DNA of 64,000 bases from Chloroflexota bacterium (lineage in GTDB: Bacteria > Chloroflexota > Dehalococcoidia > Bin125): contig JAPPFB010000002.1 of NCBI GenBank assembly GCA_028875225.1, positions 124,001 through 188,000 of the forward strand, given 5' to 3'. The notes under the pieces are model-generated. The model did not search any database. It saw only the letters and a list, made by a program, of their open reading frames with translations, and was not told where the DNA came from. How positions within the stretch are numbered: the first letter of the stretch is position 1; the number at the start of each line of letters is the position of its first letter. This document shows positions 29,552 to 31,625 of the stretch, piece after piece. Both the position numbers and the translations under genes were made by a program.

Positions 29552-31330
29552 CTAGGTGCGCTCGCCGGGGAAGTCGGGGTGGCCGGTATCCATCCAGACC
29601 TCTCGACGCCAGTGCCAGCCCTCGCGCTCCCAGACGTTCAGGCTGCGCGGCGGAACGTTGAGGTACGGCCAGTAAATCCCGGTGTCGATGCCGTTACCCA
29701 TGACCGACGATGGCGCGAATCCATCCAGGCCGTAACGCTCATCCTCGCCGAGCAGGATCCACGACACCTCACGCGCCATCTCACGTCGCTCTTCGGCGTC
29801 GAGCGTGACCCGCATCCTTGTGACGATGTCGGTCACGGGCTGGAAGTCGTACTTCTCCCAGTTCTCGCCGCCGCCAGGGACGTATCGCGAGTTCCAGGCG
29901 GATGTCGGGTCCCCGGTGCCGGCGCCCACCCAGATCGGCATCTGCCCGGGGAAGTTGCCAGTCGCGAGCTGGGCGAAGATCGCGTCGTATGGATCGAGCT
30001 GGATGTTAATCGTGACGCCGAGCGAGTTCTCATACATGTTGCGATACAGCTCAGCCGATCCCGGGTAGAGACCCTCGAAGATGTCGGCGACGATCATCGT
30101 GTACTCGGTTCCCTCCTCGACGCCGGCAGCGTCGAGAAGTTCGTTGGCCATCTGGATGTCTTCATCCTTGTTCGGCCGGTAACCGGGTAGTGTTCGCGTC
30201 GTCTCCTGGTCGATGGCCCAGCCGTGGTACCAGTTGAGGTGTTGAATGGTGGACGGGTTGCCCCTGCCGAGGTAAACCGCGTCAATGATGGCGTCGCGGT
30301 CCATTGCGACGTGGAAGGCATAGGGCACCCGACGGTCGAGCCAGGGGTTGTCGGCCCAATCCTGGTTGTAGTTGAAGCGCATCATCAACGGCAGCACCAC
30401 GCCGCGGTCATAGCGGACATGGTCGGGGAAGTCGGTTTCAAGGCCCTCGATTGCCACGGCATTCAGGCTGATCGTGTCCAGATCTCCATTGCGATAGGCG
30501 GTCTCGGCGGCGGTCTGATCGGTCAGAATCACCCAGGTAAACGAATCGAGGAATGGAAGTTGCTGACCGTCAAGCGACATCCAGAAGTCGGGATTGCGCT
30601 CGAGATGCAAGCGCGACTCGGGCTCGAAGATTGTCGGAATGAACGGCCCGCAGCCTGACACCAATTCGACGTTGGTCTGTTCGTCGATCCAGGTGCGTTC
30701 CCACAGCTCCATCGCTTCAAGCGAAGTCATGAAGGACCACTGCATGTGGACCGCTTCGAGGTATGTCGCATCCGGACCCGCCGTCTTGCAGATCAACGTG
30801 ATGTCATCCGGGACATCCATGGACGCGGTGGTTGCATAGATGGTCTGTCGCGGGAATCTGGCATCGGGAACGCCGTCCGCGTCGAGCGCGTCGATCTGCC
30901 GCTGGATGTTTGCCTGGGCGTCATGCGCGGTGAACAGCCGACCGCCCTCGGTCGGGTAGCGGTCCCAGAAGCGCGCGCCCTGATCCATCCTGAAGATGTA
31001 CGTCTCGTCGTCGGGCACCTCCGGAAGCGATGAGAGATATGGGCCGTAGACGGGCCCCGAGTTGTCGTAGATCTCCACGAGGCGGCCCATGGAATCGTTG
31101 AACACCTGGAAGGGATGAGCCAGATTGGTGCGGTGCGGGTCGAATCCGTCCCAGTTCGGCGCGGTGTACGCCGAGTAGTTGCCGCCGTACTGGCGATTGC
31201 CGACGGCCGCCTGCTGCTGTTGTTGCTGTTGCTGGGCTTGCTGCTCGGCCTGTTCCTGCACGTCGGACTCTTGCTGAACCTGCTGCTGAGCCTGTTCTTG
31301 GGCCTGCTGCTCGGCCTGCTCCTGCTGCAT
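29552..31330 (-). CDS. Family 5 ABC substrate-binding protein, mature part
   Basis: 592 residues from an internal ATG. A solute-binding protein of the peptide/nickel/dipeptide class (SBP_bac_5). The first 40 residues are almost pure Gln/Glu/Ala. The lobe sequences then show LVEIYDNSGPVYGPYL, YIFRMDQGARFWDRYPTEGG, VPYAFHVAMDRDAIIDAVYL and a late Trp-rich tail. No permease or ATPase genes for this class are in the window. There is no export signal in this frame; the Tat/lipoprotein leader is encoded in frame just upstream (31343-31564) beyond a TAA. It is either a decayed gene, a read-through product or a sequencing error. Confidence 0.8.
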   Translation of the reverse strand: MQQEQAEQQAQEQAQQQVQQESDVQEQAEQQAQQQQQQQQAAVGNRQYGGNYSAYTAPNWDGFDPHRTNLAHPFQVFNDSMGRLVEIYDNSGPVYGPYLSSLPEVPDDETYIFRMDQGARFWDRYPTEGGRLFTAHDAQANIQRQIDALDADGVPDARFPRQTIYATTASMDVPDDITLICKTAGPDATYLEAVHMQWSFMTSLEAMELWERTWIDEQTNVELVSGCGPFIPTIFEPESRLHLERNPDFWMSLDGQQLPFLDSFTWVILTDQTAAETAYRNGDLDTISLNAVAIEGLETDFPDHVRYDRGVVLPLMMRFNYNQDWADNPWLDRRVPYAFHVAMDRDAIIDAVYLGRGNPSTIQHLNWYHGWAIDQETTRTLPGYRPNKDEDIQMANELLDAAGVEEGTEYTMIVADIFEGLYPGSAELYRNMYENSLGVTINIQLDPYDAIFAQLATGNFPGQMPIWVGAGTGDPTSAWNSRYVPGGGENWEKYDFQPVTDIVTRMRVTLDAEERREMAREVSWILLGEDERYGLDGFAPSSVMGNGIDTGIYWPYLNVPPRSLNVWEREGWHWRREVWMDTGHPDFPGERT

Positions 31331-31342
31331 GGCCTGCTGCTG

Positions 31343-31564
31343 TTACTGCTGCATCGCCTGTTGCTGAGCCTGCTGTTGCTGCGGCTGATCCTGCTGTTGA
31401 ACCTGCGCCGCCGCCTGCGGCTGAGCGTCGTCGTCATCGTCACCGCCGCAGCCGACCAGCGCCAGTCCCGCCGCGCCGACGCCGGCGCGTCCCGACGCCC
31501 GCAACAGCGCACGTCGGCTCATCCGCGATCGGTGCATCCGCTGCCAATAGTTCCTGCGTTCCAT
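31343..31564 (-). CDS. Tat/lipoprotein leader fragment of the family 5 binding protein
   Basis: 73 residues, with AAGGAG about 8 nt before the ATG at 31562-31564. It has a twin-Arg motif (MSRRALLRASG), a hydrophobic stretch, and a lipobox LVGC followed by GGDDDDD and a Gln-rich linker. It stops at TAA (31343-31345) in the middle of the Gln tract. The same frame then continues with Gln codons, reaching ATG 31330 five codons later. The leader and the 592-residue body together make one normal family 5 lipoprotein, so this is the 5' part of a split gene. Confidence 0.75.
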   Translation of the reverse strand: MERRNYWQRMHRSRMSRRALLRASGRAGVGAAGLALVGCGGDDDDDAQPQAAAQVQQQDQPQQQQAQQQAMQQ

Positions 31565-31625
31565 CTGTTCGCTCCTTCAGTTGGACTCGCTGGCGACCCC
31601 GCGACGATGCGAGATTCGTGACAGA

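Follow-up and report, generated by a model that had tools for sequence, protein, structure and literature searches.

The ABC-transporter lipoproteins of the SBP_bac_5 family (PF00496), relatives of DppA, OppA and NikA, are the closest described counterparts of the gene examined here. The likeness lies in a complete match to the domain and in a leader and lipobox like those of exported binding proteins, while the long Asp/Gln-rich spacer that follows the lipobox sets the gene apart from these lipoproteins. In-frame stop codons are widespread in bacterial genes, where they are accompanied by dN/dS values below 1 and persist on approximately the scale of polymorphism, and frequent read-through of these stops has been suggested (Belinky et al., 2021, PMC7918605). 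The gene in the window resembles such nonsense alleles in that it is intact except for a single in-frame stop and has a dN/dS well below 1 and an apparently short persistence, and the worked example of that study is a CAG/TAG change. One difference is that the main set of that study shares the stop position between species, whereas here two orthologous genes have stops at different positions. The window case is of this already documented kind of bacterial gene (PMC7918605).

The locus can also be compared with programmed stop-codon read-through. The C that follows the stop and the near-cognate tRNA-Gln of the window genome are features in common, whereas the window case has no conserved stop position, stimulatory structure or suppressor tRNA. 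In yeast the near-cognate tRNA-Gln(UUG/CUG) misreads UAA and UAG, with a C at position +4 raising read-through, and in bacteria UAA is the least leaky of the stops (PMC5289835).

Structure of the interrupted gene

The window, the whole stretch of 64,000 nucleotides that was analysed, is part of contig 22 of genome G000, a draft assembly of 3.22 Mb in 29 contigs from an uncultured Chloroflexota bacterium, and the relatives used for comparison were MAGs of Chloroflexota or Dehalococcoidia. The minus strand from 31564 to 29552 forms a single frame that is interrupted by one TAA (31345–31343). This divides it into a leader ORF of 73 amino acids and the stop (31564–31343) and a body ORF of 592 amino acids in the same frame (31330–29552), and direct reading around the stop gave the codons ATG CAG CAG TAA CAG CAG CAG GCC ATG. 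A Shine-Dalgarno-like AAGGAG (31572–31577) lies 7 bases 5' of the leader ATG. The Tat-type lipoprotein leader, from Met1 to the lipobox cysteine Cys39 (31448–31564), contains the twin-Arg motif SRRALL, a hydrophobic stretch and the lipobox LVGC, and is followed by the Asp/Gln-rich spacer that contains the stop (31199–31447). Beyond the TAA the remainder of the spacer leads into the intact body of the mature binding protein (29552–31198), with a complete family 5 solute-binding domain (29888–31018) that matches positions 13–359 of the 368 in the PF00496 profile at 125 bits, compared to a curated cut-off of 32.4. All NCBIfam equivalog cut-offs lay far above the scores of the gene, so that no substrate could be assigned. 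The initial annotation had described a leader and body sharing one frame, a stop flanked by Gln codons on both sides, and an intact twin-Arg motif, lipobox, Gln linker and full family 5 domain, and all of these descriptions agree with the direct reading and the domain match. A luciferase-like monooxygenase is encoded upstream of the gene and a GNAT acetyltransferase downstream of it, both on its strand. Between 29300 and 32000 no promoter-like sites were found, and the two terminator-like sites detected were both at chance level.

Orthologues and the ancestral codon

The genome contains 20 matches to the window binding protein, and a close orthologue, whole or partial, was found in 13 of the 15 genomes of the genus, the exceptions being G003 and G010. 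In the five orthologues examined in detail (G012, G014, G001, G006 and G008) leader, spacer and body are open across 663–669 codons, which indicates that the intact arrangement is not a chance join. The export leader and lipobox are in frame with the domain in all five, while in the window copy they are severed from it by the TAA, the single disruptive change relative to the intact orthologues. The codon aligned with this TAA is CAA in G012, G014, G008 and G013, as expected from the earlier proposal that one change from CAA would create the stop; the spacers of G001 and G006 are slightly different at this site but contain no stop. The closest orthologue, that of G013, is 97% identical in the body and has a separate TAA in the same spacer, twelve codons past the aligned site. 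The presence of CAA in the orthologues and of a stop elsewhere in G013 indicates that the TAA of the window is derived and that the two stops are independent.

Identity between G000 and G013 across the leader and early spacer (31199–31564) was 79–88%, depending on the segment compared, while that of most of the body was mostly 93–98%. A possible source of this divergence, gene conversion with a paralogue as donor of the leader, was rejected, as the nearest leaders were those of the orthologues and the paralogues compared do not explain it.

In-frame stops in related and neighbouring genes

With only the leader as the query, the 15 genomes yielded 315 matches, of which nine frames truncated at contig ends were left out to give a denominator of ~306. 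Six of these leader-bearing relatives (~2%) were intact apart from a single in-frame stop; this measure, being based on the open frame around the leader, under-counts frameshifts and stops near the C-terminus. Three of the six lie in the spacer, TAA in the window gene and in G013 and TAG in G011, each followed by C. The other three are TAG codons, in the domains of genes on contig 21 of G000 and in G003, and in the leader of a gene in G005. The window gene contains 113 positions at which a transition would give a stop, 43 of them (38%) in the spacer, so three of six stops are expected there and there is no excess. The poly-Gln setting of the stop is accounted for by target size for point mutation; a stop within a Gln tract resembles recoding and yet is an expected outcome of such mutation.

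The paralogue in the same genome (G000:C21:43400-46500, L184) has its TAG at NNPG*SSIDF and is open elsewhere, and the paralogue in G011 (C5:187000-191000, L150) has an intact leader and body on either side of the TAG in its Gln spacer. The single stops in G003 (C19, L175) and G005 (C73, L176) occur at PEFI*RD and ERNY*DR respectively. Two further leader matches, G011:C5:27200-30500 (L173) and G009:C16:13900-17200 (L177), are rearranged remnants of binding-protein genes in which a displaced C-terminal part comes after the leader, as an internal deletion would leave it.

The background was measured in ~105–120 syntenic genes of G000 and G013, with the frame chosen from codon-position changes. 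Besides the two copies of the window gene there was one clear mid-gene nonsense change, in G000, and no frameshifts were found among ~100 of these genes. The stop rate in the relatives (~2%) is close to that in the neighbouring genes. Outside the window, a ~440-codon gene of G000 (C22, ~268250-269575) has TAG at position 343 where the G013 orthologue has TGG, with conserved sequence on both sides. Every nonsense change at a probable Trp codon, of which the survey gave three and the syntenic genes this one, is TAG and none is TGA, an outcome with a chance of ~1 in 16 in this small sample if the two are equally likely; the Trp origin of the three survey stops was judged from flanking sequence rather than by alignment.

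A genus-wide pattern of in-frame stops in many paralogues was considered and rejected, as most of these stops were natural terminal ones. The pattern CARCARTARCARCAR was found in 20 genomes of the family only in the window and at one site in G016, where it lies outside any such gene and is a chance match.

Selection and the age of the allele

Comparison of G000 with G013 gave dN/dS values of 0.019 for the leader, 0.067 for the spacer and 0.044 for the body. With G012 as the outgroup, the changes in the body numbered 25 synonymous and 8 non-synonymous on the G000 line, compared to 41 synonymous and 4 non-synonymous on that of G013. Taking a dN/dS of 0.04 as the constrained rate, the upper 95% bound on unconstrained evolution since the split was ~16% of the G000 branch and ~4% of the G013 branch. 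The body shows no clear relaxation and remains under strong purifying selection (dN/dS ~0.04), suggesting that the stops are very young, or that they are partly tolerated with some protein still made. The selection data do not separate these two possibilities.

The window gene is probably a young nonsense allele of a redundant and dispensable binding-protein gene. In this gene, which belongs to the family 5 solute-binding lipoproteins of ABC transporters, a C-to-T transition would have changed one Gln codon in the spacer from CAA to TAA. Translation would begin at the normal leader and stop after 73 residues, giving a short lipid-anchored peptide; as this product would have no binding domain, the gene would be a null or very low-output allele. 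Such a loss is likely to be tolerable, given the ~20 related binding proteins and the two of 15 genus genomes in which there is no close orthologue. Among the options offered by the initial annotation, a recent nonsense mutation is the one best supported, by the CAA of the orthologues and the short bound on age, although we infer both the loss of function and the youth of the allele. Three observations run counter to it: the unrelaxed body would also fit continued expression of the gene, the occurrence of a separate stop within this spacer in the closest orthologue is an uncommon coincidence at a rate of 2%, and the syntenic genes contained no frameshifts, whereas old pseudogenes usually have some. 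Overall, an ordinary loss-of-function mutation is most likely, and not a new reading of the genetic code.

An error in the consensus or the assembly, or the incorporation of a minor strain variant during assembly, within a low-complexity spacer common to ~20 paralogues is the likeliest of the alternative sources of the TAA, although an unlikely one. The assembly is a draft, the relatives are MAGs and this particular stop was seen in one assembly only, all of which would be compatible with an error, but the change is a clean single transition and the rest of the spacer aligns well. The absence of frameshifts from the syntenic genes indicates that the assembly is not generally error-prone. Stops are also present in other spacers of other genomes, the G013 contig having a SPAdes-style title with a coverage of 28.9, and these independent stops at other positions make error unlikely as a general cause.

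Termination and decoding at the stop

The nonsense allele could instead be tolerated, with a normal tRNA-Gln misreading TAA at a low level so that full-length output is lowered but not abolished; we consider this improbable. It is consistent with the C that follows each of the spacer stops, given the misreading and +4C effect described in yeast (PMC5289835), with the purifying selection acting before as well as after the stop, and with the argument that the same holds for many in-frame stops in bacteria (PMC7918605). Against it, UAA is the stop least prone to leak in bacteria (PMC5289835), no orthologue shares the TAA site of the window, and TAA or TAG with two Gln codons on either side occurs in just one of the 15 genus genomes, that of the window itself. 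The three survey stops outside the spacer replace other codons, probably Trp, and folding around the window stop was no stronger than that of shuffled sequences (z −0.62), so that no stimulatory RNA structure stands out. The Gln read-through of TAA proposed in the initial annotation thus lacks specific support, is opposed by several of these points, and would be possible only as weak natural leakiness.

Extending this misreading to the whole genus is more doubtful still. Gln-rich spacers would tolerate TAA and TAG through misreading by tRNA-Gln at a useful rate, and individual transporters would be reversibly dimmed by nonsense changes. If true, this would account for the stops that arose independently in the spacers of three genes, including one orthologous pair, whose bodies are still selected. 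Should read-through be demonstrated, the locus would offer a natural system in which to measure misreading of UAA and UAG by tRNA-Gln in an uncultured lineage, and the annotation of such genes in MAGs would change.

Re-initiation at the first in-frame ATG past the stop (31328–31330), giving a leaderless cytoplasmic binding protein, is very improbable. This ATG lies 12 bases beyond the stop and the body that follows is intact, but it is not preceded by a Shine-Dalgarno sequence on direct reading and is an ordinary Met codon in the intact orthologues. The spacer past the stop contains no ATG in G013 and G011, two of the three genes with spacer stops, and a binding protein that is not exported would have no evident use. 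The cytoplasmic form suggested previously is therefore poorly supported, and termination at the TAA of a nonsense allele remains the preferred reading.

Reassignment of TAA, or of TAA and TAG, to Gln is favoured solely by the flanking Gln codons and is already contradicted by intact RF1 and RF2, by the use of TAG (51), TGA (39) and TAA (11) at the ends of 101 syntenic genes, and by 48 tRNA matches among which aragorn found no anticodon reading TAA, TAG or TGA. These matches came from overlapping loci, with some counted twice, and their Gln anticodons were CTG and TTG only. The genetic code is standard. Both release factors are full-length. At what we take to be the sites of the recognition motifs of RF1 (PxT) and RF2 (SPF), one contains PET and the other SPF. 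Three of the 11 terminal TAA codons are followed by C, as is the stop in the window. A third protein with an RF-1 domain, which is short and has a GGQ motif, is also encoded in the genome (G000:C27:77500-80000, L154) and resembles a ribosome-rescue factor.
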